64,000 nucleotides of DNA from Blepharisma japonicum (Eukaryota > Ciliophora > Heterotrichea > Heterotrichida > Blepharismidae): NCBI GenBank assembly GCA_949751835.1, contig CATKHK010000128.1:33700-97699 (forward strand), given 5' to 3'. The notes beneath the pieces were generated by a model, which was given only the letters and a program-made list of their open reading frames with translations, was not told where the DNA came from and did no database searches. Each line of letters opens with the position of its first letter. Positions within the stretch are counted from its first letter, which is position 1. A program made the translations under genes and the position numbers. Positions 8,242 to 60,418 of this stretch are shown here, piece by piece.

Positions 8242-8652
8242 ATGGAAGCTAAAGAACTCGGTCTTTGCGCATTATTCAGAGGAGTTGACTATGTAGCTAA
8301 GGCTTCTAAGCGACCAAGAGAGCAGATAAAAGCTTTTACCTCTCTAGTATCTAACAAAACAACCCCATGCCTAGCTAAGCTATTAGACTCCATTAAAAAC
8401 GTGTCAAATGATATAGGAATTGAAGAAACTGCTGAAATACTGCATCTTCCTCCAGACGTTTTAAGACTTTTACTAATAAATTACGGTATTCCTAAAGTTG
8501 ATACAGATGGTGATAAAATGACTATTGATAATGAAGATTTCAATGATCCTGAAGAAGATGAATTGTACTCAGAACCCGATATAAAACTAGATAAAGAGAT
8601 TAAAACTTCTAAATCAGTGAATTATTCTTATCAAATAATAGATGAAGATTAA
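8242..8652 (+). CDS. Helix-turn-helix-like protein, first of a tandem pair
   Basis: A 136-aa protein. Residues about 10-85 are helical and match the N-terminal part of the next gene: VDYVAKASKRPREQIKAFTS here against an LDYIAKAAKRPREEIQAFTS form there. The segment GIEETAEILHLPPDVLRLLL has a helix-turn-helix look (E-T-A-E-I-L ... P-P-D-V-L). The C-terminal 50 aa are acidic and probably disordered. Probably DNA-binding or regulatory, by similarity to the longer neighbour only. No named family recognised. Confidence 0.65.
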   Translation: MEAKELGLCALFRGVDYVAKASKRPREQIKAFTSLVSNKTTPCLAKLLDSIKNVSNDIGIEETAEILHLPPDVLRLLLINYGIPKVDTDGDKMTIDNEDFNDPEEDELYSEPDIKLDKEIKTSKSVNYSYQIIDED

Positions 8653-8725
8653 TTATAATATAAAAATTAAATCGTTTAAATTTGCTTTAAAAATGCTATT
8701 CTTTATAGCTTTATATAAATTATTT

Positions 8726-20800: not shown

Positions 20801-23800
20801 TAAAAATGTGACATCTTGGCTTGGACAGCTTTCACTGTCCCCGACGACAGCAATAATAATATGTTTATCAGAGTCAGCATTGTCTACAAAATCATAAATT
20901 CCAGCATCAGTAAAAGTAAAGGCAAAAGTGTCGACGTAGCTTGAGGAAGATTTCATTCTCCATTCGAGCTCTTTGAAGGTAGCATAATCGAAATTTTTAT
21001 TGGTATTTAGTAAAGAGTCTTTAAGGTAGACTGGGTAGTGAGAACGAGGGGTTAAAGAGAATAAGAAAGTATCGTTTCGCTTTATACAGGCAATTGGGTT
21101 GGAAAGACCCGCAGAAGTTGAAGCAAGGGAACGGGATTCGTCATCAGTAAGAAGACGGCGGTAGTAAGTGGAGAGGGATGAACCGGTGCCATAAACTCCT
21201 TGAGGGCCGTCTGAGGTCATATCTACGGTATGGACTTTTGAAGAGTCTGAGACGGAGGTAGCTCCAAGATAGTTGGAGCCAGTCATAGATACTGGCCGAG
21301 ATGATCCACTTGAAGGATTGTAAATGTAAAATTGACCATCAGATTTAAGGGTAACGCTGGCTGATGTACTTCTACAAGTAGAGTTGCAGACGTCTTCTTC
21401 GCTAGGTGTATCATCACACACGCAGACACTGTAAGTAGAATCTAAGCTCCCAGAGCCTCCATTACATTCACTTTCACAGCTTCCTGAACTTTTGCAAGAC
21501 CCATCAGCTTTTCTTACCTGCCCTGATATGCAATTGGTATACTGTTTTGGTGTACAGTCTTCAGCTGAATCTACCTCACTTTCAGTGACCCCTTCAATTA
21601 CAAACTCATAAGTTGGCAAACATATACAGCTTCCATCATATTTCTGATATCCACGATATTTCCCTTTACAAAGACAAGTATCTTGTCCTGCATCCGAATA
21701 AGCATGCGACCCACAGATTTTGCATTTGCTTAGCCCTTCTTCGTCACCATAAGTATTTGCCGGGCACGACAGACAGGCTGAAGCACTTTTTCCTTTGGTG
21801 GATGGGTTATAGGTAGTAATTGGACATGGAATAGCTGATTCTGTGCCTTCAGGACAATAATACCCGCTTGGGCAAGGATATCCGCCATCATTACTTAACG
21901 TCTGAGGATTTGAACGTGTAGCGCCAGCTACACAAAGATACCCAGCATCGCATGGGTAACATTTTTCTGACGACGTCCCATTAGCATATAGTCCAGCTCC
22001 ACATTCAATACAAGCATTATCTACCATATAAGTCCCAGGCTCACAAGTTTCTGGGTAAAAGTTAGCTAATTGGCAAATAGTTCCAGTAGGACACTCAATA
22101 GCTTCGTCTTCAGTGTAATATTTAGTAAGGTTAGTGCTATCATATAAAGGACAATAATAATTCACAGGGCATTTTGTAGGAGTTTCTGTAAGATCATTGC
22201 AGATATATCCAGGAGTACATGGGATAGGAGCTGATGAGCCTAATGGACAATAAGTGCCAATTGTGCAAGCAACTGGAGATGTTGTAGCTTCTTCACAATA
22301 ATAGCCTCCAGGACAAGGTGGACAATCACTTGCAGAACCTGCTACACTTGAACTGCCTAGGGTGCCTGGTGGACAAGGAATATAAGATTCAGCCCCTAAT
22401 ACACAGAAGTAGCCTTTTTTGCAAGGATATTGGGTATAATCACCTATCCCTGTGCTACTACAATAGTAGCCAGCTGGGCAAGGCTTGCAAGCATTTATGT
22501 CACTCATTGATTTGCTGCCATTATATGTATATTTAGGACAAGGTGTCGGAGAATTGACGCCAGAAGGACAGTAATTCCCTGTAGGGCAATCAAAAGGTGT
22601 AGGGTTTCCTGTGACACAGTAGCTTCCAGGTGGACAAGTAGTACAGTCAGAAATTTGGGTAGCTCCTGTATTTTTTCTGAATTTTCCTTCAGGGCACTTA
22701 GTTGGTGTTGTTGTTCCTAATCCACAATAATAGCCTGAGGGGCATGGAGTACCTGATAAACTATACACAGCTGGAGTTGAGTAAGGACTAGACTTTTTGC
22801 ACCAAAACCCAGGGGCACACTGTCCAGAAATTCTTCCATCTACACAGTATTGTCCTGATGGGCACACACTGCAGTCTGTATCAACTGTAAGGCCTTCACT
22901 ATCTTTATTATAAGAGCCTGCAGGACAAATAAGCCCATATCCAGTCCCTTGAGGGCAATATTTGTATTGTGGGCATAAGTTGTTTGCATTAGTAGCAGCG
23001 TTGTTGCATTCTCGGCCAGCAGGACAAGTTTTGCATGTATCAAGATTGGTGACATCAGCATAGGTGCCTGGTCCGCATGGGAATTCATTACTATATCGAG
23101 TTCCGGCAGGACAATAATAGCCATTAGGGCAGTTTGTTTGAATTGCAGTAGAACCTGTGCAGTAGTAACCATTTCCGCATTGTGTGCAGGATGATTGCTT
23201 AGTTTGAGTATTATAGTCACCCATTGCACAAGGTATAGGGACCCAGCTGCCTGTGCCACAGTAATAGCCTGTAGGACATTCACCTTCTGGAGGGGTAGGT
23301 GTTGCTTTTCCAGGATCACAATAATAGCCGGCAGTGCAGTCTCCTGTAGGAGAGCTTAGACCTTGACTATTACAATATTTGCCATAAGGACAGTCAAGAC
23401 ATTGAGTATAGTCGCTTAAGCCCTTTGAAGGACTATAAGTTCCAGCTGAACAAGGAGTTACAGCAGAACTTTCTGTAGGACAATAGTTCCCAGCAGAACA
23501 GATATTTCCATGAGTTCCATCTGTTGGGTTTGCAACTTTAGACCCAGCCAAACAATAGTAGCCAGCTAAACATGACCCTGATTGGGCTGCTAATGCATAA
23601 CCTCCACAATAAAGGCCAGCTTCGCAAATGGTTTTTGAACTGCTTCCTGCAGGACAATAATTGCCAGGGTCACAAATTCCACCAGTTGCGTCACCTTTAG
23701 GCATAGACGTAACAGCTCCCCCAGTACAATAATACCCATCAGCACATACATCTTGATAAAGTGCAGCTCCAAGGGTTGGGCAGTACTTTCCAGCGTCACA

Positions 23801-26800
23801 CGTCACACAAGCTGTACTTGCGCTTTGGCCGATCAAGCTATTATAAGTTCCAACTGGACATGGATTAGAATAAATATAACCAGTCCCTGATGGACAATAA
23901 TACCCCATAGGGCACAATGTTTCTGAGGTAGCTCCTAAGTCGCAGTAATACCCTGGATCACACGTAACACATGAAGATTGTTTTGTATTCATTTGATAGT
24001 TTCCAGCAGGACACAAAATCTCTTCAGCTGTGCCAGCAGGGCAATAATAGCCTCTATCGCATTCTTTTGTAGGCGTAATGTCTCCTCCAGGGCAATAAAA
24101 ACCAGATGTACAAGATTGCCTCATATTTGATGAGCTAGTGCTGCCATCACAGAAATAACCTGGGGAGCATGTGATGCACTCATTACTTGCAGAAGCTCCG
24201 GTGTATGGCAAGTAGTATCCTGCGTTACATTGGACAGGAGAAGCAGGTCCAGTGCAGTAATACATAGCTGAGCAAATATTTCCAGTGGTGCCATCAGTTG
24301 GGGCTGGAGTTGTAGCTGCTGATTTACAGTAATAACCGGCTTGACAACTATTAGAAACGGCGAATAATTCATCGTCTGAACAGTATTTTCCAGAATCACA
24401 AGGAATGCTTGATGTAGAGCCTTGTGGGCAGTAATAGCCTGGATTGCAACGGCCTCCGTATGTTTGGTTTTCTTGAGGTCGGGAAGTTGTAGACTTTGAA
24501 ATACAGTAAAAGCCTGGGTCGCATTGTCCAGCAACAGCAGAAGCTCCTAGTTGGTTGCAGTAATAGCCTGGTGTACAATCGATGCATGCAGAACTTGACT
24601 GCTGGCCTGAGTTAGGGTTGTAAGTGCCTATAGGACATGGATATTGCTTAGGATATGAAGTTCCTGATAAACAATAATAGCCTATAGGGCACACATTTGC
24701 AGTGTAGTCTGATGTACCTGGCGGACAATAGTAGCCAGGAGGGCATGTCTGACAACTTGCTTGGTTCGTAAGGTCTTGATAAGTGCCTGCTGCGCAGAGT
24801 AATTGTACTGCAGATCCTTGTGGACAATAGTATCCTGCTGCACATATGCCACCTCCTGGCTCTCTTGTAGTAGATGATTCAGTGCAATACCATCCTTGCC
24901 GACATTGAGTGCCTGTATACGCTGATAACCCTGTGCTTGTGCATGCATATCCGGCAGGGCAAGGGAGACAATGAGTTGGATCACTTCCTGTGGTGCTTGG
25001 ATTAAATGAGCCAGTAGGGCAAGCTATTTGAGCAGAACTTCCTAAACAATAATTCCCGACTGGGCATGGGCCGTAATATCCTGGAACATCAGTATAAGGT
25101 TGAGGGTATGGAGAACTTGAGGTACAGTAGTAGCCAGCAGAACATGAGCCTGCCACAGCAATTTGACCAGAGTACAAACAGTAGTTATTAGCGTCACATA
25201 GATTGCAATCATCAATGCTTTGGCCTCCTGATCCTAATCTGTATGTTCCTGGAGGACAAAATTTTCCAATAAATGAGCCTTGTAAACAATATTTTCCAGT
25301 TTCACATGTTGTCATAGATGTCAGTGTTGTAGTAGGACAATAATTTCCTGGGTCACATGATATACAAGCAGAAGCTGCAGGGCTTGGATTATAAGTTCCA
25401 GCAGGACATGCAATTTGGGCAACACTTCCTGAAGGTGCATAGTACCCTGCTGAAGCAGGAAGACGATTCGCAGTTGACTCACCTGCTGGACAGTAGTATC
25501 CTGGATTGCACATACCTGTTGGTGATGGGCTCAAATCAGTGCCTGCACAGTAATATCCAGGCCAACAAGTAACACAGTCAGTTGCCGACCTTCCTCCATC
25601 AAAATTGTTAAAAGTCCCTGCGCTGCATTTTTGAGGCGAGGTTGTCCCTGCAGGGCAATACCCTCCGGCAGGACACTTTTTTCCAGTTTGACCATCATTT
25701 GGTGTAGCTATAGAAGCTCCCCCAGAGCAGTAAAACCCTGCTGTGCAGGTAGCTGTTTTAGTAGTTTGGCCTGGAGATTGACAATAATAGCCAGCGTCGC
25801 ACGAAGTGCAGTCTGTAGAAGTAGCCAATCCTGTGGCAGCTCCATAAGTGCCGCTTGGGCATTGCAGAGGTGTAATAGTCCCTGATGGGCAGTATGATCC
25901 AATAGTACAAATAGTTGGGGTGATTGTAGCTGTTGTCGGACAATAGTACCCAGGAGTGCATGAGGCACAGTCAGACACAGAAGCTCCACCAGTAGGCCCT
26001 CTATAAGTTCCAGCAGGGCAAGCCATAGCCATAGATGATGTGGAGCCTTTAGGGCAATAATAGCCAGGACTGCATAAATAGGAGGAATAGTCTGACACTC
26101 CAGTAATGCTTACATAGTACCCAGCTGGCACAGTTTTGCAGTCGTTGACAGATTTAGCGCCTTGAGTATTTCTATAAGTACCTACAGGGCAGGGTGTCCC
26201 TGATGAGGAGCCTTCAGGGCAATATTGGCCAGCTGGACATCCATTTGAAGTTGCCAAAGGGTATAACTTAGGGTAAGTACTCATACCTGAAGCACATATG
26301 AACCCAGCTGGACAAACTGATAAATACATCATAAGCTCTGAAGTAGCTGCCTGAGCACAGAAATACCCAGCCTTACATAAAATTGGTGTTGTAGCCCCTT
26401 CATAAGTATAATAGCCAGCATTTGCGCTTTGGCAAGTAGTAGAACCTGCAGCATTTGAATATTTTCCAGCTGGACACCTTTTACAGCTGGGATAAACCCC
26501 TGGTCCTCCATCTTGAGCTCCTAGTTCGTCCATATATGTACCAGCTGGACAGGTTATAGGTGGTGTTGAAGTAGAATCATAACCAGGGCAAAACTTTCCA
26601 ACAGGACAAAATATGCACTCTCCTTGGTCACTTGCCCCACCTGTGCTATAAGTCCCTACTGGACATATATATTGCTTATCATAAGTAGTGCCTCTAGGGC
26701 AATAATACCCAGTTGGGCAAGTGTTTGAAGAATATGTAGACGTCCCAGCTGGACAATAGTAGCCTGCAGGACAAATTAAGCATTCATGGACTCCTTCTAC

Positions 26801-29800
26801 ACGAGTATTCGCATTATATGTGCCAGCAGGGCATGGAAATTCTGTAGTAAAATGTGTACCAATTGGACAATAATACCCAGCAGCACATACTACAGGAGGG
26901 TTATTAACATAGTTTGTACCATATCCGCAAGCAAAGCCAGGAGGACATTGGTCACATTGGGCTAAGCCATAAGCCCCATACATGGTGCCGAGAGTACCTG
27001 GAGGGCATGGGTTTTGGGTTTTGCGGTTTGAGCCTTCTGGGCAATAGTAGCCGATTTCACATTTTATGGTAGCTTCTACTGTGCCAGCTCCTGGGCATGC
27101 ATAGCCAGCAGGACAGACCCAGCAGCTGCTTAGAGGGTTTCCTTGGTATGGGCCAACTTTTCCTGGAGCACAAAGAACTGGCTGTTGTGAACCTGAACTG
27201 CAGGAAGTCCCTGCTGGACATAATAAGCAGTCTTCTATTTTATATTTCCCTGTTAATGAGTTATAAGTGCCTTCTGGGCATGCTGTAGCAGATGTACTTC
27301 CAATCGGGCAAATGTTTCCTGTAGGACAAATGGTAGGATTTGCAGTACCTGCAGCGCAGTAGTAGCCTTCAGGACATTGTAAACAGTATCCTGCTGAAAT
27401 AGCTCTAAGTTTTTTATAGTAAGTCCCTCCTGGACAGTTTGTACCAGTAGATACTCCTGAAGCGCAGTATTGTCCTTGTGGGCATGGGTAGTTTTCATAG
27501 TTTCCTGTGCCAGCAACACATAGATATCCTAATGGACAGTTAAAGCAAAAAGTGCTGTCATAAGCTCTGACAACAGCATTAAATTTACCAGCTCCGCATT
27601 GAGTCATTGAAGAACTCCCATCACAGTAGTAACCTGGCCAACATTCAAATCCAATCATATCTGGCCTATCTGCATTATTTGGTAGCCAGAAGCCTATAAA
27701 TGCTGAGCTTATAGTTTTTGACCCAATATAAGAGTATTTGTTGGAAGAAGCATAATTGCCAGCGCCATCTTCTCCTCCTGGTATTGGATAGCACCATCCC
27801 CATCCTGATGAACAAATAATATTATCTTTCCAAGCATTATAACTCTTTACATAATCATCAACATTTGTGGATGTTGCAACGCCGCTTCCACTAGTTGTCA
27901 GGCCTGGATAACTTGCTAAAGTTGTCGTTGATTTGCAATAGGCTGAGCCTGCAACAGAGTCATAATTTGCTGGACAAGATTTTGGCCTAGCACCTGATCC
28001 AGTTCCTTCACTGGCTGAACAATAAGAGCTAGCAGGGCAAAGTTTGCACATGCTTTCTCCTGAGGCTCTATATGTCCCTTCAGGGCAAATCCTTGTAGGT
28101 CCTTGGAAAGGATCGCATTCCATATTATCAGGACAAGTCAGACAAGTGTCCATCCCAGCTAAAGAATAAGTCCCAGCACTGCAGGCAGTATATGAACTTC
28201 CACTACAAGAAACCCCAGCAGGACAAGGCACACACATATCAGGAGATCCTACTATTATATATCCGCTTGGGCACGCAACTGTAAAAGAGTATTCAGGACC
28301 TGGAGCCATATAGCCAGAAGAAGGTGTGCTGCAAGACCCGGAGCCTGGAGCTGAGTACTGTCCTTGGACACATCGCTGCATTTGATAGCCGCTTTGGTTT
28401 GGGCATGAAAAACCGCCTGGGCAGCCAAGACAAAATGAATAATATTCATATGAGTAAGTCCCGGCAGCGCAGGATTGTGCACTTAGAGTAGGGTCTGGAC
28501 AATATTTCCCTGCCGCACAAGCTGTACAGACCATATCATTTTGGGCTGAATAAGTCCCAGGAGGACATGGGACTGGAGTAGACCCCATGCAGTTAAACCC
28601 AGCAGGACATGTACATTTCGGCCCATTTGGCCACGCATAAGGTGCATTTATACAAATATTGGCCACAGAAACTGCTATAGTTGTAGTAGCGCTGCCATAT
28701 CCTCCATTTGCCCCAGTTAGTGTAACAGCTACTGATGTATACGGAGTACTTCCCATTGACCCAGCTGCTGCATATATAGTAGCCTGTTTAAATAACTTGT
28801 AATCAGAGGTCGTAAAGGTTAATGAAGAGGTCGTCAATGATAAATTTGTAGTATCTGTAGATGCTATACTTACAGTCACGGTTGCTGATGGCTGTGAGGA
28901 CAGTCATACATCAAAAGTCGCATATTGTTTACTTTGAACCAAAATAGCTGAGTTGCTTACTTTTATAGTAGGAGAACTTGCAGGAAGAATAACTGCTGTT
29001 GTAGTTTTATCTGAAGGATAAAAGATCGCACTATTGAAATTTGAATCTGATGTAGAGACTGAATAGGTAATTGTAGTAGTTTGATAAGGAGATGAGGCAA
29101 TTGAAGGGCCCGTTATTAAAATTCGTTGTGTGCTCCAGCTTGAAGACGTAAAAGTTACTTGGCTTGCGCTTAGTGTTATATATGAGTTACTTAATGATAG
29201 CGAAACTACTACATCTGATGATGGCGCAGATCCGATTGAGATGTAGAGTTGAGTGCTGTCTTTGGCTTGGAGACCTACAGAAGAGTCTGCTTGAATATAA
29301 TATTTTGTACTCCCATATATTGGCACAGAAATTGAGCCTGAAGAAGCAGTTAGGCAGGTTTGGAAATTAGCGACACCGTTGTAGGTGGAATCTGATGAAG
29401 AAATTGAGTGGATCACACCAATGTTAACGGGGTAAGAAGAGGAAGCAAGCATCCCAGTGTTGAAGTAAACTTTTTGAGCTGTGGCGTAGTTTGAGCTTGT
29501 AAATGTCAGGGAAGTTGTAGTGATTTCTAAAGAGGAGGAGTCTTTTGAGCTGAGAGAAACGACCACATTAGATAGTGGTGCATCTGTTAAATATATTTGG
29601 TAATATTGGTTATAAGTTGCTTCAAAAATTGCATCAACAAAGTTTATTGCTAGCTCTCCATTAGAATATGATGTTGCTGAAAAAGTTGTTGAGAAAGCTG
29701 AATATCCTGAACAAAGGGCTTCAACTGTTATTGACCCAGTTCCTGTATAAATTACATTGGAAAACGACAAACTCCCCAGATTAAGGGTTGCACTCCCACC

Positions 29801-30659
29801 ACTGCTTATCTGTCCATTTCCTGACTTTGCTTGCAAGTAGCATTGGATGCTCGAAACAACTTTATTTCCGCTTGAATCTGTGACAGTTGCCGTCACGGAA
29901 AATCCTGATCCTTTATAAATAGTAGTTGGATAAGAGTTAAACGTTATAGATGACGGAGTTCCTGAAGATATCGTAAAAGAGTTGCTATAAGCATCGCTGA
30001 GCCCTGAAGCACTTGCTTTTAACACAAAGGTCCCAGCTCCAGAAACAGAGCATGAACTAAAAGTACTAGCACCACTTGTGGCTGTCACTGAAACACTTGA
30101 CATTGTCCCATATCCACTTCCAGGTATCAAATTCAGCGTAATTGAGCTGGCAAAGGATGTATCCACGGTATTTTTACCTATAGGAGGTTTTAAAACTTGG
30201 ACTATTACATTGCTGGAACAAGGGTTAGATGTACTTGTAGGCTGAGCTGAAAAATAAAGCATTTGTGAGGTGCCTGAAGTAATAGTAAAAGCACTGCTGG
30301 ACACAGAGCTATAACCTATGGCAGCAGCTATAAGTTTGTAATTGCTTCCGGTCTAAAGTAAATTTTACTGCTGTAATATAAAGATTGTTAAAGGTAGCAG
30401 AGTTTGAGCTTGATGAAAAGGTAGCTGCAAGATTTCCATATAAAATGACAGTGCTTGACGCAGTTGAAGGGTCTAGGCTCAAAAAGATCGAAGCTGTGTC
30501 ACTTTGAGATTTTGTGACTGTGACAGAAAATGTGCTATACGCAGCTGTCTACTTATAAAATACTGATGATGACGGCTGAGTGCTGAACGACAAAGAAAGA
30601 GCCAATCCTCCTGGAACTAATAAGATCCAAAGAAAAAGAAGCATTTTTATTATAAGCAT
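17867..30659 (-). CDS. Giant Cys-rich (GCC2/GCC3, ephrin-receptor-like) single-pass membrane protein with coiled-coil tail
   Basis: 4253 aa in three exons (introns 30549-30563 and 30353-30368), with a single TGA-Trp at 28902-28904. The start at 30659 or an in-frame ATG at 30644 precedes a signal peptide (LLFLWILLVPGGLAL). Residues about 30-650 are Ser/Thr-rich beta-type repeats. About 658-3086 hold dozens of 40-50-aa Cys repeats of the form CPAG.YC..G....CPAGTY, the GCC2/GCC3 type. About 3298-3324 is one membrane helix (IVALIILIILIIGFL). The last 925 aa are a charged cytoplasmic coiled coil. The extracellular part recalls alveolate CRMP proteins, linked to regulated secretion, but those have a different membrane end. 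Surface or exocytosis-site receptor is inference. Confidence 0.9.
30353..30368 (-). other. 16-nt intron in giant Cys-rich gene
   Basis: Minus strand GTAAAATTTACTTTAG. Without removal a TAG ends the frame; with removal, similar Ser/Thr-rich sequence continues on both sides. Confidence 0.85.
30549..30563 (-). other. 15-nt intron in giant Cys-rich gene
   Basis: Minus strand GTATTTTATAAGTAG. Its final TAG would stop the frame; removal connects the signal-peptide exon to the rest. Confidence 0.85.
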
Positions 30660-41243: not shown

Positions 41244-44200
41244 TTAATCATCATCAATTTCTGACCCAGACTCATTTTCCTGTATCTTTTTCGCTTTTCT
41301 CAATCCATTACTTACAAGTATTTTCTCCAAAATCAAATCCAGCTTACTATAAATAGGGATATCCTCATTGCAAACCAAATCTGAAAGCCTCCCCAAAAAA
41401 TCAAGAAATTCCACAAACTGCATTTTATAGTGAGCTCCATCCGAGTCCATTTCATTTAATATACTCATTTTGGAAAATGCATAGACCTTTATAAGCTCAT
41501 CGTCATTAATTGTGATTTTTGCTTTATCCACAAGTGCTCTGATTGATTTGAATGATAGCCATCTTCCAAGCTTTTCTCGATATTTTGTAAAAATGTTTTG
41601 GAGATTTGATAAATTGGCTTCAAGGATGTCGTTAACTTCGAGGTTGTAGAGCTTTTCTTTTCTGAATTTGGCAGCTTTAGCAGTCATGGCGTATTTAAAT
41701 ATATGCTCGTTTAGTAATTTTTCAGTCATTTGACTAGGTGTTAAAGGAAGATCTTGGTATTTGCAGAGAGCTAATCTTACAATAATTTCATAAAATTCAT
41801 ATCTACACAGCTCTTTATCAGGGTTATCATCCAGTTTTTCTTCAAGCTCTACATTTACAGCTATAAAAATTCTATCAACTGCAGCTTTATTTAAAAATTT
41901 TTTATCATGCATATCACATTGATCACAAAAATCGCTGAAATCAAGCCAGCCAATACTAGGATAATTACTACTTGCCGACAAATATAAAAAGATCTCTTTA
42001 ATTTCACCAAAATTAGCTAGCAAAACGCTATAAACATCATCTAACTGTACAGGGTCTCTAATAATCCTTGGGAGCTTATAATACTTGCTATCATAATCAA
42101 ACATAATTTTCCTGGTATGGTCAGTATCGTCTATATAATTTCTAAATACAGATTTATTTTTATCAAAAACTCTTCCCACTTGGATATTTTCAGCTTCACT
42201 TACAGAAAGCTCATATGACCTTAAGGGAATATTAATTTCATTAGTACTGATCTCTTCTCATCTCCTTTTAGATAATTCTTTAGAAATGCATACATCATTT
42301 CCATCTAAAATAAATCACAAATAATGCTTCCCAGGAGGCAAAAGTAAAGAAACTTCATATTTTCCTAGGGTTTCGTCTGCAAGCTCTAATGGGATTTCTT
42401 TTCAGTCATTAAATGAAGCTTTTAAACAAATTTTGCAAATTTCTCTGATTTTTTTCCAATTGAAATTGTTAATATTGTCAATAGTTTTTAGCTTCTCTAA
42501 GCTGATTTTTAGGTCGTAAATGACCCACCTTTCACATATCCAGCAATGTGGAGACAAAATTCATTGGCTTGAGCCTTTAACTTCTCTTTTTCCAAGCATC
42601 CTGGAAAATATTAATTCATTGGAATGCCCGAACAGTCTTTTATCTGCCTCTTTGGTAGGACTTTCTATGTTTAATAAATTATCCTTGTGTGTAATTAATG
42701 ATCTTCCCATACCATCTCTCAATTTAAGATTTATTTTTGTGCTTTGTTCTACAATATAATCATTTCTTTTTAGAAACTTCATAGGGTGTGGAACTGATAA
42801 AGCTGAATTTGCTTTCATTCCTGCAGTTTCTTGTGCCCCTAAATGAAGTATCATCGAATTCAACATTTTTCGAGAAATTTTATTTCCAGTGAGATGCAAG
42901 CCGATCAAGGTGTTAGACTGCTTTAAACCGTTAATAATAATTCCTGCATCAGTGTCTGTGATTTTTGTGTGAGAAATATTAAGGTGTAATAAACCAGGAT
43001 GCCGACTAAAAATCTGGCTAATTAAAATGCTTAATTCAGAGTCAGAAGAGCTTAAATTATTTCATGAATAATCTAAAAACCTTAAGCTCCTATTTTTTCT
43101 TAAATAGGCTAGAAATTTTTTAGTACTTTCAGTAGAAATTTGATTTCAAGATAAATCTAGCTCAGTCAGAATATTTTTTCTTAAAATTCTGCAGACTTGG
43201 TCCATTGCTGAATTATTAAGCCCTAAATCTGAAATATATAATTTTCTTAAGGTTCTTGAAAGTGGTAAAGCTTTGAGAGTTTCTACTACATTCATCGGTG
43301 TAAATCTACACGCATTTAAATTTATTTCTGTAATTTGAGCTGAAGCTATCATTTTATTTAATTCTTTGGCAAAATTTGAGCCTATTTCATTTCTTGTATA
43401 GTAAAGAGATTGGATATTTGTATTTGTAGATATTCCTTTAAGCAGATTTGCACCTCCTTGATCTGAAATTCCGCATTCATCCAAATGAATTTGCATTAAA
43501 TTTTTCATAGTCTTTATAGAGTCACTTATAGCTCTGCAGAGTTGGTCATTCATTTTATAGCGATTTAATATTAAAGAATGCTCTTTAGCATGCGCGAGAA
43601 CTGGAAGTGGAGGTATTTGCTCTTCAGTACATTTTTTACTGAAAACTGATAAAGAGGAGTCTTCATCATATTCGTTTTTAGATCGGCCATATTTCCGATA
43701 TGCATCATAAGCATTTTCTTTACTTTGAATTTCACTATACAAACTTTCTATTAATGGAGTCTTAGCATTTTGTAATTCTTTTCTTAGATCTTCTATTAAT
43801 TCCTCCTTTTTTTCAGCATCTTGAGTAAATTGATTAGTGGATCTCATTAAATTCTCAATTGATTTTTTCTTTTCAATTTTCTCTTTGACTTTCCTCAATA
43901 TTTTCCCATGGATTTTTAAAGGTGAAATAGGTGGAATTTTTAATGTAGGAGTAACTGAAAGGTGCCTCAGTGAAATATCAGAAAAGTTAGTTGGAGAAGG
44001 ATTGCTGTATAATGAAATATCATTAATTTGCCTGTAAAATGAATTATCCTTGTGAGGGGATTTTCGTATGCTTTCCAATCTGTCTTCAATTTCAGTTAGG
44101 AAAAAATCTATTTTTCTTTGCAGAGAAATTGCGTCCTTTTTGCCACTATTTCAGGACTCGTCGTTTTGTGTAATAAATGATGGCTGAATGCCTGGAGATT

Positions 44201-44273
44201 TGATTTGTGGGAAGTTGATGTTGTCTTTTACTTCGAAATTTGGAGAAATAATATAAGCATGCTCAGTTGACAT
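41244..44273 (-). CDS. Leucine-rich-repeat protein with CBM48/AMPK-beta-like glycogen-binding domain
   Basis: A 1009-aa protein that is continuous only with seven TGA codons as Trp (plus-strand starts 44151, 43146, 43062, 42561, 42402, 42315, 42258). An N-terminal coiled/disordered region (about 1-200) precedes ribonuclease-inhibitor-type LRRs (about 220-480) with LTELDLSWNQI-type units. A CWICERW motif lies at about 576. About 610-690 is a CBM48/E-set module: ASFNDWKEIPLE, then LLPPGKHYLWFILDG, as in AMPK-beta. Two Trp of this module are TGA-coded. The last about 310 aa are helical. Glycogen or starch sensing is inferred from the module. Divergent from the gene or relic upstream with only 25 bp between starts. 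Confidence 0.88.
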
Positions 44274-44298
44274 AAAATATTACAATTAAAAACAGATT
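44274..44298. promoter_or_regulatory. Very short divergent promoter (copy A)
   Basis: Only 25 bp separate the LRR-CBM48 start codon (minus) from the position matching the start codon of the plus-strand paralog. The equivalent spacer in copy B (45975-46008) is 34 bp. If both sides were transcribed, promoter elements must overlap the coding ends. Confidence 0.45.
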
Positions 44299-45280
44299 AT
44301 CGAAAAAACCTTAGAAATTTTACTAAAAAACTTGCAAGAATCATAGCTATAGAGGGCCAGTTTTTTGACAATTTATTAAGCATTTGATTATGTAGCCTAT
44401 AAAAATAGAAGAAATTACGTAAATATGCTTCAATATAGCCCCAAAAATCCTCCAAAGAAATCCTCCAAAGGACTAAATTCCAAATCTTGGTGACATTTTC
44501 TTCTTTGATCATGTTTGCACCAAAATTTTTTCTGTGGAAGACATGAAAAAGTGTGCCATACACAATTTATCACTATATTATGCCATCTGAAGAGCAATCA
44601 TTAACTCTTAACTAATGGAAAAATTTTAAATTTTTTTTCTAAATAAATGTTTTCTTGTAAAAATGCTCTGGAGGAAGTCTAAAAACGCATCATTCCAGGC
44701 ACACCATAGGTATTTAATTCTCCAGCTACCATAGTGAATCAAATTTCAATTGGCTTGTATAATATTATTTTTGTAAGGCTTGCAAGAATTTGGCACACAC
44801 CATGATATACTTGGGAGAAAGTGTTTTTTAACTTTTTTCCAATGCATAAAATATCAGTGGAGAGATACAGGCAAGGAAAATGGCTAAACTCAGCAATAAC
44901 TATAAATCAAAAGACGAAACAATAATTTTTCATAGCTATTATGGAAAATTATATCAAGATAGCTATCATGACTTCTTAAATCTTCCTTATATCTCTAATA
45001 TCAGTTTGAGAAAATTGGAGACTGATATAGAAGAACTAGATGCCAACAGTTGTGAATTTATTGAAGAATTTAGAGATTTAATACATATTATGGATATTCG
45101 TGGCCAAATCATAGCGCAGAAACCTTTAGAGACACGATTGATGTCATTTTAAATTTTTGGATGAAAGTTGGGATTGCAGACACAGGAAAAATGCATTTTT
45201 TATTAAAGCAAGGCATTGGAGACATTGATTGTGAGTTTCCAACATTACTCAATAGTTCTATTCTAAATATTCTAAATCAA
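44299..45280 (+). pseudogene. Decayed copy A of the gene at 46009
   Basis: DNA-level similarity to the intact gene at 46009-46761 runs almost throughout. The start codon is changed (ATG to ATC at 44299-44301), there are in-frame stops and single-base shifts, and about 220 bp (44641-44862) are inserted in the middle. A 90-aa open piece remains at 44880-45152. It lies at the position where copy B keeps the intact gene, next to the intact LRR-CBM48 gene. Confidence 0.8.
44641..44862 (+). repeat. Dispersed module, copy 1
   Basis: About 220 bp, similar to 47294-47482 (shared blocks include TTTTCTTGTAAAAATGCTCT and AAATATCAGTGGAG). It interrupts pseudogene A but is absent from the intact gene B. 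No clear terminal inverted repeats or target duplication. Confidence 0.6.
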
Positions 45281-45797
45281 TCTTTTCATTCTACTTTAGC
45301 TTATCTTTCAGCTATCCTTCTATTACTCATGTGATATCACGCCCTCGGAGCCTTTAATTTTTATTTCCAATTTTCACCATCAATTTTCATCTATTTCCCT
45401 GAATTTCTTAAATTTTCATCGATTTTCCCAATTTCTATTTTAAATTTTCAATTTTCCTTAGTTATTCTTTAATTTTTTGCCAAATATCTGCTCCTTCAAC
45501 TTTCCTCCAAAATTTCAGCCATTTTTAATTTTAGATTCCTTTAGTCTTTCTTTTTGCGGCAATCTTTCTTTCCAGTCAATTTTTCCTTTCATTTTTGGCG
45601 CATTTAAATGGCGTAAACATGATTAAACTGAAGGGAGGGAGGGTTTCTGATTGAATCAGATATAAGTGAAAAGATTCTGTTCAAAATTTTTTTCCTTTGT
45701 GGTTTTTCATGATAAAAACCGAATTTTTGAAATTTCAGTCATTTTTATCAGCAACAACTTTACAGGAAATGCCATCCTAATATATTTTCAAGATTAC
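45281..45797. other. Spacer with pyrimidine-rich tract
   Basis: 517 bp without a supported gene. From about 45355 to 45600 the plus strand is low-complexity C/T-rich, built on recurring AATTTTCA/TTTTC words. Confidence 0.5.
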
Positions 45798-45974
45798 TCA
45801 AAGAAATTGAATCTTTTTGCCACTTTGCCAAGACTCATTGTTTTGGTGATAAATGAGGGCTGAATGCCTGGTGACATGATTTCTAGGGAGTGAATGCTAT
45901 CTTTCGTTTCCAAAATTGAAGAAATAATATGGGCATGCTCGTTTCTCATATAAAGAGGACTATTTAGTTGACAT
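45798..45974 (-). pseudogene. Relic of the LRR-CBM48 gene 5' end
   Basis: Matches 44117-44273, the first about 50 codons of the intact LRR-CBM48 gene, including SPGIQPSFIT. It has an approximately 24-bp insertion after the first codons, a TAG, and frameshifts; the rest of the gene is missing. It sits divergently 34 bp from the intact gene B. Confidence 0.8.
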
Positions 45975-46008
45975 AAAATATTAATTTGTTAAATAATTAA
46001 AAGGACAC

Positions 46009-46761
46009 ATGGAAAAAACCTTAGCAAATTACACTAAAAAATTTGCAAGAGTCATTGTTATAGGAGGGGCCAGTTTTTTGACAATTTATGGAGCATTTGC
46101 TTATGTAGCCTACGAAAATAGAAAAAGCTACAAGAATCTACTACAATCTTATCAAGAAAATCCTCCTCCAAAGGATCAAATTCCTGATATTGGAATAGGT
46201 GACATTTTCTTCTTTAATCACGCTTGTATTAAGAGTTTTTCTGTGAAAGATATGAGAAATTGTGCCATACACAAAATTTATCACTGATCTGTGTCGTCTG
46301 AAGAGCAATCAATAAGGTACAGGCAAGGAAAATGGCTGAATTCAGCAATAGCTATCAAATCAAAAGACGAAACAATAATTTTTCATAACTATTATGGAAA
46401 GCTATACCAAACTAACTATGAGGAATTCTTAAATCTTCCTTATATCTCGAATATCAGTTTGAGAAAATTGGAGACTGATATTGCAGAATTAGATGTCAAC
46501 AGTCATGAATTTATTGAAGAATTTAGAGATGTAATAGATGTTATAAATAATTCGTGGCCGAATCATAGCGCAGAAACCTTTAGAGACACGATTGATGTCA
46601 TTTTAAATTTTTGATTGAAAGCTGGGATTGCAGACCCAGGAAAAATGCATTTATCATTGAAGCAAGGCATTGGAGACATTGATTGTGAGTTTCCAACATT
46701 ACTCAATAGTTCTATTGCTAAATATTCTAAACAGTGGCCAATTAGATCCATAACTAAATAA
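46009..46761 (+). CDS. Membrane-anchored protein of unknown function, possibly papain-like fold (copy B, intact)
   Basis: 250 aa with two TGA-Trp codons (46285-46287 and 46612-46614). An N-terminal basic segment is followed by one membrane helix (about 14-32, VIVIGGASFLTIYGAFAYVAY). The rest includes GIGDIFFFNHACIKS, then GKWLNSAIAIKSKDETIIF and FLNLPYISNISLRKLE. This order recalls permuted papain-like (YiiX/LRAT-type) amidases: a GD(I/L)..F strand, an S-H-(V/A)-x-I strand, then an R-x-L strand. The usual His of the second motif reads Ser here, so if the fold is right, activity is doubtful. The fold call is tentative. Two more copies in the window are broken. Confidence 0.65.
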
Positions 46762-47293
46762 TACATTGCTGTTGATGACGAAATTAAGTGTTGATTCATA
46801 TCCCATTTTTTAAAAGTAAAGTATCTAACGTATTTGCTTCAACTGTGTGCAATGTTTTATTGCTTCTTTATTATATGTCATATAACTTAACTAAAGCAAT
46901 TCTTTTCGAGTCACTGTCACTTGATACTTCGCTTTCATAAATTGATCAATTAAATACAATCTTTCTGAATTTTTAATGATCTTGTCTTATCACCTTCAAA
47001 ATTAATGAATCGTAAAAGATTTTCATTAATCCCTCCAGGAATTAAAATATCCAACTAAATTTTACGCTATTGCAACTGCGATCAGCTTGTGGAAACCCGA
47101 ATAATTTGATCTATCAGTTTTGTTCAAATTAAGCCTCTCTAATAGAGTTAAAGCATCTTTAGTATTATGTCCTCCAAAATAATAAACATTATTGTTGAAA
47201 TAGATAGCTGATGAGTATTTGAAAGGAGTTATAAAAGGGAGATGTAGAACTCTATAATTTTTATCAATTATCAATGAAGCTCCTGAATCGGTA
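46313..47293. repeat. Segmental duplication, copy 1 (981 bp)
   Basis: Nearly identical to 47483-48464 by eye, with scattered substitutions and small indels. It covers the last 150 codons of gene B and an inverted Kelch-like relic. Both edges are sharp: TAAGGTAC at the left and GAATCGGTA at the right. Confidence 0.9.
46790..47293 (-). pseudogene. Kelch-like relic (B-box/Kelch family), copy 1
   Basis: On the minus strand it keeps a Kelch-like blade (KYSSAIYFNNNVYYFGGHNTKDALTLLE, written here as KYSSAIYF and VYYFGGHN) matching the intact gene at 58670 and the relic at 55993. There is no B-box part, and the frame is broken at several points. Convergent with gene B. Confidence 0.75.
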
Positions 47294-47482
47294 AATAAAT
47301 ATTTTCTTGTAAAAATGCTCTGGAGAAATCTACAACGCTTCCTTCTAGACACACCATATTTATTTGATACTCCAGTTACAATGGCGAACAAAATTTCAAT
47401 TTAGCTTGCATATTTATTATTCTGTAAGGCCTTGCGAGGAATGTTTTTTGACTTTTTTCCAGTGTATTAAATATCAGTGGAG
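47294..47482 (+). repeat. Dispersed module, copy 2
   Basis: 189 bp related to 44641-44862. It lies exactly between the two copies of the 981-bp duplication. Confidence 0.6.
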
Positions 47483-47939
47483 TAAGGTACAGGCAAGGAA
47501 AATGGCTGAACTCAGCAATAGCTATCAAATCAAAAGACGAAACAATAATTTTTCATAACTATTATGGAAAGCTATACCAAACTAACTATGAGGAATTCTT
47601 AAATCTTCCTTATATCTCGAATATCAGTTTGAGAAAATTGGAGACTGATATTGCAGAATTAGATGTCAACAGTCATGAATTTATTGAAGAATTTAGAGAT
47701 GTAATAGATGTTATAAATAATTCGTGGCCGAATCATAGCGCAGAAACCTTTAGAGACACGATTGATGTCATTTTAAATTTTTGATTGAAAGCTGGGATTG
47801 CAGACCCAGGAAAAATGCATTTATCATTGAAGCAAGGCATTGGAGACATTGATTGTGAGTTTCCAACATTACTCAATAGTTCTATTGCTAAATATTCTAA
47901 ACAGTGGCCAATTAGATCCATAACTAAATAATACATTGC
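47483..47939 (+). pseudogene. Truncated copy C of the gene at 46009
   Basis: Keeps the last about 150 codons almost unchanged, but the N-terminal 100 codons, with membrane helix and start, are absent; the 189-bp module stands in their place. Confidence 0.8.
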
Positions 47940-48464
47940 TGTTGATGATGAAATTAAGTGTTGATTCATATCCATTTTTTAAAAGTAAAGTATCTAACGT
48001 AATTGCTTCAAATGTGTGCAATGTTTTATTGCTTCTTTATTATATGTCATATAACTTAACTAAAGCAATTTTTTCGAGTCACTGTCACTTGATACTTCGC
48101 TTTCATAAATTGATCAATTAAATACAATCTTTCTGAATTTTTAATGATCTTGTCTTACCACCTTCAAAATTAATGAATATCGTAAAAGATTTTCATTAAT
48201 CCCTCCAGGAATTAAAATATCCCACTAAATTTTACGCTATTGCAACTGCGATCAGCTTGTGGAAACGCGCATAATTTGATCCATCAGTTTTTGATTAAAT
48301 CAAGCCTCTCTAATAGAGTTAAAGCATCTTTAGTATTATGTCCTCCAAAATAATAAACATTATTGTTGAAATAGATAGCTGATGAGTATTTGCAAGGAGT
48401 TATAAAAGGGAGATGTAGAACTCTATAATTTTTATCAATTATCAATGAAGCTCCTGAATCGGTA
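47483..48464. repeat. Segmental duplication, copy 2 (982 bp)
   Basis: Partner of 46313-47293. It carries the 3' part of the gene-B family (no start) plus the end of a longer inverted B-box/Kelch relic. Confidence 0.9.
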
Positions 48465-49200
48465 GCCAGCAACCAAAACAAATTAGAAAACTGAACAATG
48501 CATGTGCCATAGTCTAGCATTTCAGGAGCTTCTAATACCCTAGTTTCTTACTGTTTTTTTTGTATCATAAACTATCAAATTAGTTCTGTTGTTACCTCTT
48601 TAATTATATAAAGTTATTTTGCGATAAGCACTAGTATAATGCTGATATTCTCGCTGAAGAAGCAGATCATAAACGCAGGCACTTTTTTAGACTAGGCAGC
48701 TTCTCCTAAAGTCTTGCTCTAATTCTGGGTGCTTAGTCTATAAAAAATTTCTGATCATTTGTCACTTAACCTCTATTTTTTGAGTATTAGGCAAATCGAT
48801 TTCGTTTCTATTTTGAGCTTTATTCTTTTTTTCAGTCTTCTCTATCTCTTTCATTTATCAGTTTAGAAATCGAGTCTTTAATCATAATCCATTCAGTCAA
48901 TAACTCTCCAGCTGACTCAAAGACCCAAGAACTTTTCTTATCAGCTTTATATTTTTGTTTCTTCTCTTAAAGAACCCTAAGAATTACTTCTTTAGTTCCA
49001 TCATATAGCTCTGCAAAAATATAATAAACAACCTGAATCCTGTTAGTTAGCTTTATATAATGAGTTGTATTTTAAAAGGTTCAATGAACTTTTTTTATAT
49101 ACTGTCCGAGATTCAATTCACATAATAAAGCTTGAGGGTCGTGTATTGGCATGCACATTCAACCTGATGATTGCACCCTAGCTCACGGCATTGTATATAA
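47965..49200 (-). pseudogene. B-box/coiled-coil/Kelch relic, full-length but broken
   Basis: On the minus strand, a decayed B-box start (QCRELGCNHQVECACQ, near 49190) leads to a coiled-coil remnant (SLEGTKEVILRF-like) and then to the Kelch-like blade at about 48300-48500. Many stops and shifts. It parallels the relic at 55993-57665 in order and wording. Confidence 0.75.
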
Positions 49201-50300: not shown

Positions 50301-50367
50301 AGAAATGAAAGAGAGGAAATGTTTTTAACAATAAATAAATAGAAATGGAAGAGAGGAAATGTTTTTA
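50301..50367 (+). repeat. 27-nt direct repeat duplicating a start codon
   Basis: 50301-50327 and 50341-50367 differ at one base. Both contain an ATG and the codons for M-(K/E)-E-R-K-C-F; the upstream copy stops at TAA after seven codons. Confidence 0.85.
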
Positions 50368-52090
50368 TCAAGGCTGCAGCCATGAAGCTGATTATTTATG
50401 TGCATGCTCTGCTCAGGCTTACTCATGTAAGAACCACTTGTCAGATCATCTTGAGTCTTCTGAAGAAGATCATCCTTTCAAGCCTACTTTTATTAGACTC
50501 CTCAAAAAAACAAAAAATGCACTTATTGAGCTTCTTAAAAAAGAAAAACTTAAGAAAGACAAATTGAAGGAAAAGGTTATAGCTTTATTTTATAAGCATC
50601 TTCAAAATTCAGAAAGCATCCTTAAAGATATCCTAAATAAATTGGCAGCTGATTCAGACGATTTAAATAAATGGCTTAGGCAGATTTCTAGTACTCAAAA
50701 AGTATCAAAGACCGAACAGAATCCATTTGTAAAACTATTGTCTTTACACCCTGATGAAGCTGTTGAGAAAGCTAAATTACTAATTCCCAAAACTTCAGAA
50801 TCTTATGACAGTCCTAAGTTATTCTCGGCAATCCCAGAAGCCAGCCCTACAGCAATTGAGCATATTAGCAATAATTATGAAACATTTCTAAGCATGCTAT
50901 CCAAAATAGAAAAAACACTTGAAGAGTATGATAAATCAATTGAATCAAATAGAAAACTAGCTTCTGAGAAGTTAGGAAATGCTAGAAAATTTACCTCAGA
51001 CTTAATAAAGAAGATTGAAAAATGCAGAAGCAAGCTTGAAAACTGAAAGCATAATGTGGAAAGTAAAGATCAGGAAGAAATTCAAGATCTAAGCAGTAAT
51101 CTTTCAGCCATGCAAAATCAGATTCAACTCAAAAATTATTTATCTAGCGAAGAGCATTTAGAAGCTGCAAAATATCAAGGAGTAATTTTACAAATAAACC
51201 CTAATACAGTGATAGAAATTGATATAAAAAATCCTATTTTTGTGCGAACAAGAGACAACATTTCTGTTCTTGTATTAAAAGGTAAATTTAAAGATAATGG
51301 AATTGAGGTTGCTATCAAAGTACATAAAAGTAAATATAAAGCAAAGTTAAATAAATACAAAAAAGAAGTAGAAATTTTGCAAAAACTTCAGGGGAGGAAT
51401 TCAATATTTTTAGAATTTTACGGAACTAAAACAGAAACTGTATCAGTTGGTAATGAAAAAATTTACCTTTTATACTTAATAACGGAGCTTTGTGATAACA
51501 CCCTTATGAACGACATAAGTAATCGAAGCGTAACTAGCCGATATTATATTTATGATGGCAGCTATTTTAATATAGCCAGTAGCCTTTTGGAAGGTTTCAT
51601 AATACTAGAAAAACTCAAAATTCATCATAAAAACATAACGCCTCATAATATTTTAATATCTAAAACTGGAAAGCTGAAAATTACTGGTTTTAGTAATTCA
51701 AAACTTCTGCTGGATCTAGAGGATGAGCCAAAGTATCATAAAATTTCAGGAAAAATAGGATATATGGCTCCTGAAATTCGAAGAGAATATGAACAACAAA
51801 TACGTTCTAAAGAGCAAAGAAAAATAGAAATTCAGTTAAGCAAAGCAAGTGTTTATTCTTTAGGTTTGGTGCTTTTTCAGCTTTATACTTTGCCGTCTAT
51901 TCAAGAATTTAATAAATGCATGGACCAAAATTATTTAAATAATTGCATTGATCAATTTAAGCCAATAGAAATATGCAAAACGCTGAAAGGGATGCTTGCA
52001 TTTGATCCATTAAGAAGAATTTCATTAACAAATGCATTATCAATACTTGGCTATGGTGATTATTATCGCACAGTTTATATGGGGGAGTAA
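50345..52090 (+). CDS. B-box / coiled-coil / pseudokinase fusion
   Basis: 581 aa with one TGA-Trp (51044). Residues 1-45 form a B-box-like zinc finger (CFYQGCSHEADYLCACSA, then CKNHLSDH). About 50-290 is coiled coil. About 300-575 is a protein-kinase fold: VAIK with the ATP Lys (about 325) is kept, and GYMAPEI and VYSLGLVLF are present. The catalytic loop reads HHKNITPHN instead of HRDxxxxN (Asp to Asn, about 427-430), and the metal-binding DFG reads GFS (about 447). Both catalytic Asp are missing, so it is predicted to be a pseudokinase. The N-terminal half is shared with the Kelch-like family members downstream, showing swapping of C-terminal modules. Confidence 0.85.
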
Positions 52091-55992: not shown

Positions 55993-57665
55993 ATGAAGCC
56001 AATGCAATTTTTTGAGCCAGAATACAAGCATAAGGCTGAATATGCATGCCAATGCACCTCTTCTCAAACTTTATCATTTGAATTGATTTTGGACAGCATA
56101 AAAAGCTAAATAGCAAGGCTCACATCATTGATTCTATTTTTGAGAGCCATGTGAAGGAACAAAAGAAGCAATTCTTAATTTTCTTGTAAAAGAAGAGTTA
56201 AAAATATAAAGCTGAAAAAGAAGGTACTTGAGCCCTTCAGTCAGCGTTTACTTGAATCAGGAAATGAAACCAAAGAATCTCTAAAAAAATTTGGATTCAG
56301 GCTTGGGCTGAAAATAAGAAATTATGTTACAAAAATTTCTAAAACTCTAAAACTGTCAAAGTCAGAGGATCAAATTTTAGGAATATTAAGTTTAAAGCCT
56401 GATGAAGCTGTTTAGAAAATTAAAAAAATCATCCCAGGTAATCAAGAATGGTACAGAAGTGCAAAATTCTTTTGTGGGCTCAACGAAAAAATTGAAAAAA
56501 ATAATTGAGTGTTATATTGAAGACAAATTTGAAGCTTATTTAAATAAAAGACTTTCTAATATAGAAAATACTCTTGAAGAGCAAAATAAAGCTATCAATT
56601 CAAGTAATGACAAACTTGAAGCTTATTTAAATAGAAGACCCACTAATATGAAAAATAATCTTCGAGAGCACGATAAAGTTGTCAATTCAAATGATGAAGA
56701 GCATAAAAAGATTATTGACTGAACGGACTATGAGCTGACAAACATCAAAGACTTTATTTCTAAACTGATAAATAGGAATAATAAAAACAAGAGAAATACA
56801 GAAGACTAAAAAAAGAATAAAACTAAAAATGCAAAACAAAATCGATTTGCATAATAATTAAACAATTAAGATTACTATAAATCTTATAAAAAAGAATGAA
56901 TCAGAAAGATCTCAGAAGATTCGAGAATTAAGAGCCAAGAAATCAGAAATTCTAAATAGACTAAGCGATCTACAAAAGTACCTGCATTTATGATCCGCTT
57001 CTTCAGCAAGCATATAAGCATTATAATAGTGCTTATTGCAAAAAAACTTCTCTTTATACAATTAATGAGGATAACAACATAAATAATATGATTGTTTATG
57101 ATACAGAAAATAGTAGTAAAAAAATCAGGTTGTTAGGAACTCCTGAAATAGACATGGCACATGCATTGTTCAGCTGTATAATGGTAATTTATTTTGTTTT
57201 GGTCGCTAATTACCAATTTCAGGGGTTCCTTGATAATTGATAAAAATTATAGAGTTCAACATCTCCCTTTTGAAATTCCTTGCAAATACTCATCAGCTAT
57301 CTATTTCAATAATAATGTTTATTGCTTTGGAGGACATAATACTAAAAATGCTTTAATTTTCTCAGATAAGTTTGATCTGAACGAAAACCCATGGATCAAA
57401 TTATGCGCGCTTCTACAAGATGATCGCAGTTGCAATAGTGTAATATTTAATGGAAATATTTTGATTTCTGAAAGGATTAATAAAAATTGTTTACGATTTT
57501 TAATTGGCAGTAATATTTTCACAACAATTTCTTATGATTTTGAAGGTGATAAAGACAAGATCCTTATAAATTGAGAGAGATTGTATTTAATTGAAGCGAA
57601 TCAATTTATGAAAGTGAAGTATCAAATGGCACTGCCTGGAAAAGAATTGCAGGCTCAAAAATAAA
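55993..57665 (+). pseudogene. B-box/coiled-coil/Kelch relic
   Basis: Colinear with the intact gene at 58670 and the partial gene at 63477, but broken by stops and shifts. The zinc ligands are already lost (MQFFEPEYKHKAEYACQC where intact copies have QCF..GCK..V.YAC). A coiled-coil piece is open at 56402-56722 and a Kelch-like piece at 57194-57574 (KYSSAIYFNNNVYCFGGHN). The last visible similarity ends near 57665. Confidence 0.8.
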
Positions 57666-57894
57666 TATTTTTTAGTCAAGTTTATATGACATATAATGAA
57701 GGAGCAATAAGCATTGCACACAGTTGCACAAATTATGTTAGATACTTTTTAACTTGAATGAAAAAATATTAACTGAATTTGTTTAAAATATAATAGATCT
57801 CATTTAATGCTCTTTCGCCGTTAACTCATAATTCTTAATAATTATTTTATTGGTTAAACTAGCTTATATCTTTCTAAATCTAAAGAAAGGGGAT

Positions 57895-58305
57895 ATGAAT
57901 CAAGTGACAAGCAAGAGATATGTAATAAAATAAACATTAGAAGTGGATCATTTGGAAATGTTTTCTAAGGGAAATATAAGCATACTAGTAAGCGTGTAGC
58001 ATAACTTCAAATAGTTTTAAAAATGGTAAGGAATCAACTCATTGATCATAATAATTTATTATTTAGTTATGGATTTACTTGAAGACTCTTTAGAATAATT
58101 TTTATCAAAAAAGATAAATAGAGATCAGATTTAGAAATTACAAATACATCAGACTTAGGAAATTATCAAAAAATAGATCATATTGCACAAAAACACTCTA
58201 ATTGCGTAGTTACAAGAAATTTTCCCGAAAATTTTATTCGAAAATTTTGAACAAGAAGAAAGTTTAAAAGTTTATTAAGAGGCAGCCTCCTAGAAAACTT
58301 AAGCA
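57895..58305 (+). pseudogene. Protein-kinase relic with many TAA/TAG codons
   Basis: A glycine-loop-like RSGSFGNVF-(stop)-GKYK at 57930-57980 is followed, after one frame change near 58045, by YLVMDLLEDSLE-(stop)-FLSKKINRDQI, matching the hinge and next helix of a kinase. About ten TAA/TAG interrupt an otherwise protein-like reading. Confidence 0.55.
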
Positions 58306-58669: not shown

Positions 58670-60418
58670 ATGAATCAAAAGAAGTGCTTTGAACTAGGCT
58701 GCAAAAATGAAGTTGAGTATGCATGCAAATGCACCTCTCCTGAATCTTTCTTTTGTAAGATGCATAGCGAAAGGCATATTAAAAAGAAAATTGCTGGCAG
58801 GGATCATTCATTGTACTTTATTTTTCCAGAGTCTTTAGAAGAGACAAAACAAGCTGTTCTTAGATTTCTTATGAAAGAAGATTCAAAGTATAGGAAGCTA
58901 AAGAAGTTAATTATAGATTCCTTTAATCAGCGTCTAGCTAATTTGGAAGAAGATTTAAGACAATACACTAGAAATTTAGATACTGTTTCAGATAATGTAT
59001 GAAATTTGCGTTTAGAAATTTGTGGAGCTGAAAAATCGTTGGAGTCAAACCGAAACTCAATTACAGAGTTATTGACTTTACAGCCTGAAGAAGCTGTAAA
59101 CAAAGTAAAATCGATAATCTCAGCTGAAAAGCATTGGTATAATGGTGCAAAGTTGTTTCATATATACAGCAAAGACTTAGAAAGTTTAATTGCATCTTTC
59201 GTTAATAAGAGATTTCAAGCATTTCTTAATACTATGCTCTCCAATAAAGAAAGCAGTATTGAAGCAAATAATAAAACTATAAATTCGGCTGGGATTAAGG
59301 TAGCAAACATTAAGGATTTGATTTCTTTAAAAGCAAATGAAAACAGTGAGAGTTTAAAAGTGCTTCAAAATTTATTAAGATTCAAAAAAGAGAATGAGAT
59401 TGCGGCAAGGCTGCTTAGTTCTAAAATAAACTCCATTACTAGTGATATCAACAGTAAACTCAAAATATCAAAAAGCCAATTAAATCTTATGGATATTATT
59501 AATACTTTAAGACATAAAACAGCTGAGTTTTTGAGTAGACCAAACAATCGAGAATTAGAGATGGATTTCAGAGAAACTTGCTCTGCGTACCAGAACATTT
59601 ATAGCATTTATGATCCACTGCTAGCTCAAGCTTACCAAGATTATCTTAATGCTTATCAACAAAACACATCTCTTTATAATCTATATAAGAATAACGAATT
59701 AACTATTTATCACACTGAAACTGAAACCAAAGATGTCAAAATCTTGCATACTCCAGAACCACTAGACTCAGGCACTTGCATAACTCAACTTCCAAATGGC
59801 AAGCTATTCTGTTTTGGTAATGATCCAGCTTCTGGAATTACATTGCTATTTGATGTGAATGGTAGAGTTGAAGTGCTGCCATCTGGAATTCCTTGCTGTC
59901 TTTCATCATGTATCTATTTCAACAACAGCCTCTATTGCTTTGGAGGATTTGATAATAAGAATCTTTTAACTCTATCTAGTAGATTTGATTTGGATCAAAA
60001 TCGATGAATTCAATTAACTCCATTGCCAAAAGCTCATTCTAGTTGCAATAGTATAATATTTAATAGGAATATTTTGATTTCTGGATATAAAAATTGAAAT
60101 CTTTTGCGATATTCAATTGATAGCAACTCTTTCACAACAATTCCTTATGAGTTTGCATATGATAAAAGAAAGATCCTGATAAATGCAGAGAGATTGTATT
60201 TGATTGAATGCGGCCGTGATGGATCAATCTATGAAAGCGAAATTGGAAGTGACACGAACTGGAAATGAATAGCATACTCAAAAATCGAATGTTCTCCTTG
60301 GCAAGTGTATTGTTCGTATAACAAAGGAGGAATATGCATTGGGATAATTGATAATATGTTTGAAAGAAAATACTTCAAGTTTGATTTGAATGGAAAGAGA
60401 GTGATTATATTAGAGTAA
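58670..60418 (+). CDS. B-box / coiled-coil / Kelch-like protein (intact)
   Basis: 582 aa with four TGA-Trp codons (59000, 60005, 60095, 60266). Residues 4-50 are a B-box-like zinc finger (CFELGCKNEVEYACKC, then FFCKMHSERH). About 55-330 is coiled coil with the family block LTLQPEEAVNKVKSII. About 350-580 is a set of Kelch-like blades (GKLFCFGNDPASG, SCIYFNNSLYCFGGFDNKN, then LYLIECGRDGSIYE), two of them containing TGA-Trp. This is the cleanest family member in the window and the reference for the relics. Possibly an adaptor, by analogy with B-box and Kelch proteins elsewhere. Confidence 0.85.

Follow-up and report, generated by a model that had tools for sequence, protein, structure and literature searches.

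Copies of a divergent gene pair that keep opposite partners whole, and an insert that may be a trapped IES, in a Blepharisma-like somatic genome

The window analysed here is the final 64 kb of contig C128 (97,699 bp), part of an assembly of 45.2 Mb in 224 contigs. Its frames stay open when TGA is read as tryptophan and TAA and TAG as stops (table 4); under TGA = Trp one frame of 4131 aa (17867-30262) runs without interruption; by eye it shows many cysteine repeats, and its tail looks charged and coiled-coil-like. At the start of contig C36 are CACCCTAA repeats. In the somatic genome of B. stoltei, UGA is described as coding for tryptophan, the telomeres as CCCTAACA, introns as tiny and intergenic regions as short (PMC9942806). 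Given these traits, the TGA = Trp frames and the C36 repeats, we read the assembly as Blepharisma-like and macronuclear. A bacterial origin was rejected on the same repeats and on the need for TGA = Trp in the long frames.

At 41-49 kb of the window lie copies of a divergent gene pair, in which a small neighbour is read from the strand opposite to an LRR gene (Table 1). A first-pass annotation had reported the pair as present twice, with the LRR gene intact beside a neighbour without ATG and frame in one copy (A), the neighbour intact beside a broken LRR 5' end in the other (B), and only 25-34 bp between the starts. The descriptions of A and B hold in full. The LRR gene of A is open throughout, and its neighbour begins with ATC in place of B's ATG and carries several indels and stops, two of the stops within codons aligned to B. 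The neighbour of B is open from ATG to stop, its LRR remnant is gapped and short, and both spacers have the lengths reported. The LRR protein of A falls below the curated Pfam cut-offs for LRR_6 (23.1 bits against 23.4) and for AMPK1_CBM, which is of CBM48 type (23.4 bits against 26.8); 'LRR-CBM48' may serve as a fair label short of a curated domain assignment.

Table 1. Coordinates of the gene-pair copies, the insert and the tandem repeat (positions in the window unless a contig is named).
Feature	Position	Strand	Details
Copy A LRR gene, intact	41244-44273	-	1009 aa, open under table 4, 7 TGA = Trp
Copy A spacer between gene starts	44274-44298	.	25 bp
Copy A dead neighbour	44299-45283	+	lost start codon, indels, stops, insert
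Insert in neighbour A, candidate trapped IES	44604-44862	.	259 bp; left TA 44602-44603
Copy B LRR 5' relic	45799-45974	-	176 bp
Copy B spacer	45975-46008	.	34 bp
Copy B intact neighbour	46009-46761	+	250 aa + stop, open with 2 TGA = Trp
Single TA in B, would-be insert site	46313-46314	.	
Tandem repeat, first unit	46313-47293	+	B 3' half + kelch fragment
Copy C, whole	47292-47931		insert piece, then neighbour 3' half
Copy C piece of insert	47292-47482	.	left end missing
Copy C neighbour 3' half	47483-47931	+	1 mismatch vs B in 425 bases compared
Tandem repeat, second unit	47483-48464		98.2% to first unit over 984 columns (blastn)
Copy D	contig C53, near 7484-9219		LRR 5' relic of about 870 bp + neighbour frame

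Up to E 10 the neighbour protein matched no Pfam family; its best PDB match has E 0.34, and its single-sequence fold is of low confidence (mean pLDDT 41). By eye its N-terminus is a hydrophobic stretch, from which we would guess at a small membrane-anchored protein; it may also bear some likeness to permuted papain-like proteins. From about 46731 the tail of neighbour B diverges from A and D and resembles the flank of a kelch gene, so that its last residues may stem from a 3'-end fusion. In blastn, 46720-46767 matches the kelch-gene flank at 58053-58100 with 83% identity (E 1.5e-7).

The similarity put forward for 45798-45974 is well above chance. Copy A and the B relic align with a local score of 442, against a mean of 154 (sd 18, z 16) in dinucleotide shuffles, none of 1000 of which reached that score. 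With blastn, A (44121-44604) matches B (45799-46315) at 5e-83 over the LRR 5' end and the 5' half of the neighbour, and the region of the B relic matches copy D at 8.8e-59. The relic carries two single-base gaps and a 5-bp gap relative to D, and it ends at 45799. Since none of its 48 codons aligning to A is a stop, what breaks it is the gaps and the truncation.

The count of two copies did not hold, as searching the whole assembly at the DNA and protein levels gave four (A, B, C and D); C, D and the insert in neighbour A are all absent from the first-pass annotation. The neighbour protein had eight matches in the 45-Mb genome among the best candidates scored, namely B, C and D once each, A in four pieces and a distant relative on contig C130 (30% identity), which matched no Pfam family up to E 1. 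The LRR protein, with the best 45 of 103 candidates scored, gave 49 matches: A at full length, three partial matches in D and 45 matches to other LRR genes at 21-32% identity; the B relic was not among them. Thus, among the candidates scored, only A gives a full-length LRR match and only B has a neighbour whose frame is open and whose start is not interrupted.

In copy D the neighbour is an open frame of 241 codons, and the LRR gene is truncated and carries one stop and two single-base insertions. From the LRR ATG to an upstream ATG that fits the neighbour is 55 bp. Nine codons past this ATG lies a 32-bp stretch with TA at each end and an in-frame stop (L007:8213-8244, C53, minus strand). This stretch interrupts the start, and we therefore do not call D fully intact; it is below the length of published Blepharisma IESs and is readable as an unusual intron too.

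Divergence among the copies bears on which genes have been under constraint. Neighbours B and D give dN/dS 0.19 (bootstrap 0.12-0.29) over 241 codons at a dS of about 0.7, and the neighbour is constrained between them; the value for neighbours A and B is 0.39 (0.25-0.68). For the LRR gene, A and D give 0.096 (0.049-0.161) over 282 codons. This low value, despite the lesions in D, argues that D's LRR gene died late. The A-B value for the LRR gene (0.28) comes from only 48 codons and we do not lean on it. Changes specific to each copy were counted by codon position (first/second/third) over 693 sites of the neighbour, both gene halves summed. Those of A are even, as in a dead gene (18/15/15), with a slight lean to the third position in its 3' half (8/4/10), and those specific to D or to the A/B stem fall most heavily on the third position (23/17/57). 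Copy B has few changes of its own (6/4/12, and an even 4/4/4 in the 3' half), so that the case for constraint on B is built on 22 changes and on its open frame. Along the gene, A-B dS falls across three parts (0.35, 0.25, 0.09), which is weakly significant (18/500 permutations as uneven); no such unevenness appeared for B-D or A-D (494/500 and 257/500 permutations). This points to probable gene conversion, perhaps at the 3' end, and because of it the dates are not firm.

What becomes of the reciprocal loss that the first-pass annotation had proposed is mixed. Opposite partners are indeed intact in A and B and, among the best candidates, the full LRR gene is found only in A and the intact neighbour only in B; but there are four copies, and the LRR gene of B was maybe never complete. 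That the duplicated segment started inside the LRR gene, so that B was born incomplete and true loss occurred in A only, has a little under an even chance of being right. It would fit the end of the relic at 45799, the sequence to its left (45284-45800), which had no other match in a genome search that passes over simple repeats and words of very high frequency, and the LRR searches, which found no further LRR sequence near B. Against this, D's LRR gene was long constrained and only then broke and was truncated, which makes later truncation a known path here, and a later deletion of the LRR body of B is possible.

Either way, a pair of back-to-back genes appears to have been copied several times, with each gene whole in a different copy, and the comparison of sequences from which we read the duplication, decay and tandem-repeat steps points to the ordinary decay of duplicates. 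We put at roughly three in four the probability of the whole account, in which the divergent pair was duplicated at least twice, giving D, the older copy, on C53 and B, the nearer one, next to A. The redundant copies would then have lost one gene at a time, A keeping the LRR gene and B the neighbour with an LRR 5' end, and a recent tandem duplication of B's 3' half and flank would have given C. As in the reciprocal loss described after whole-genome duplication in Paramecium, redundant copies would have been reduced to single ones with survivors at different loci; here only a divergent pair was duplicated, on a small scale, and not a whole genome. Reciprocal decay of duplicates is already well known. 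None of the papers listed for Blepharisma pseudogenes or gene conversion, or for divergent gene pairs in ciliates, dealt with this locus by title or abstract.

The short spacers and the LRR 5' end retained beside the neighbour in both B and D might suggest that a shared bidirectional promoter holds the pair together and that the relics persist as regulatory sequence. We consider this very improbable, as the Blepharisma genome is reported to be gene-dense with short intergenic regions (PMC9942806), so that close starts need no special cause, and the two intact genes now sit in different copies with no common spacer.

What the comparison adds is a single site seen in three related copies: A and C have an insert but each miss one boundary of it, and B has no insert. 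The insert consists of 259 bases that are extra in neighbour A relative to B and D and directly follow a TA. It was located at two places only in a genome search, A and C, the C piece being 72% identical to A. Both copies align to its right boundary, where A is short of two bases that are best placed as TA; C continues through this right TA into the gene, and the identity between B and C starts at the same TA. The TA at both ends is thus pieced together from A (left) and C (right), neither copy showing both. Copy D has no insert and has CA rather than TA at the site, and in B and D one protein reads straight across it. At the left join of C (47291/47292) the kelch flank meets the insert interior with TA in common, as the join of a tandem duplication would give. 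From this the duplicated unit seems to have carried the insert, though the near-identical B is without it; since this join also falls at a TA, TA joins may arise by other routes as well. An intron was rejected for the insert, whose left end lacks GT.

Could the insert have originated as an IES? In B. stoltei, roughly three in four IESs are described as TA-bound, with a median length of 255 bp and a range of about 65 bp to 7 kb (PMC9942856). The insert, at 259 bp plus TA in A, is inside this range and close to the median, and it resembles the TA-bound B. stoltei elements in its pieced-together TA ends, its location in a gene and the continuous frame without it in B and D, whereas it is known from a somatic assembly and at two dead copies. 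We give an IES origin roughly even odds. It is unlikely that A and C carry a plain insertion unrelated to developmental excision, with TA ends by chance. The surroundings would favour such chance ends (GC 31%, TA 8.9% of dinucleotides around the site), and among simulated random excisions in the same region (42-50 kb) whose terminal repeat is at least 2 bases long 13.8% hold TA; the insert also occurs at just two places in the genome and shows no clear inverted ends by eye. But a TA direct repeat arose in only 2.8% of all the random excisions, and B and D read through the site as one protein. A survey of blastn gaps of 15 or more at 40-64 kb gave six rows for four distinct gaps, none clearly TA-bounded and too few to weigh; one of them is inside the A/C insert, and the A/B insert is absent from the survey because the blastn alignment broke there.

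If the insert is an IES, it could be older than the split of A and B and still be excised from B in the developing macronucleus, and it would stay in A and C since each misses one excision boundary. The present cutting from B is, in our judgement, somewhat short of an even chance. We hold as tentatively the joint reading that a single IES was inherited by A, B and C and is germline-only in B, trapped somatically in A and C through different lost boundaries. For Paramecium, nearly all mutations that block excision are reported to strike a flanking TA (PMC3464196), and boundary mutants, exon-recruited IESs and precise losses have been described there (PMC3464196, PMC8354472). The loss of one flanking TA that keeps an IES in the soma is what we propose here, inferred in another ciliate by copy comparison and not by genetics.

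The contending explanation for the empty site in B is that its germline site is empty as well, the insert having been lost there through an erroneous but precise excision or through conversion by a copy that lacks it. This is a plausible minority reading. Among 64 Paramecium groups, 17 precise germline losses of IESs were reported, as was exon recruitment in 6 (PMC3464196); A-B divergence is uneven as conversion would give, and D is without the insert. It does require one more event since the tandem duplication, whose units differ by only about 2%. The comparison of three copies thus makes a clean prediction on the germline DNA at B and on the end requirements of heterotrich excision. Were the trapped IES reading true, boundary loss, together with frame lesions, would have helped to decide which duplicate survived, and germline DNA could be exposed from a somatic genome alone, by comparison of the copies in it.

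The kelch genes that flank these copies belong to a family of many copies, represented in the window at 46720-47300, 47972-48903, 56712-57748 and 58670-60418, the last with kelch motifs over the cut-off. A search with 46720-47300 (best 40 of 166 candidates) gave 66 matches, from which 40 places including the query were kept and 26 weaker second pieces dropped. Of these 40 places, 27 are no more than 10 kb from a contig end, and on contigs of 100 kb or more the count is 16/25 against 1.75 expected. Telomere repeats were seen at 2/40 contig starts viewed (36 kelch contigs and 4 others), so that many contig ends may be assembly breaks at the kelch family. In the frame at 50345-52090 the second half contains a protein kinase domain (Pkinase, E 7.5e-19), and the first part, by eye, resembles the nearby kelch-family proteins.
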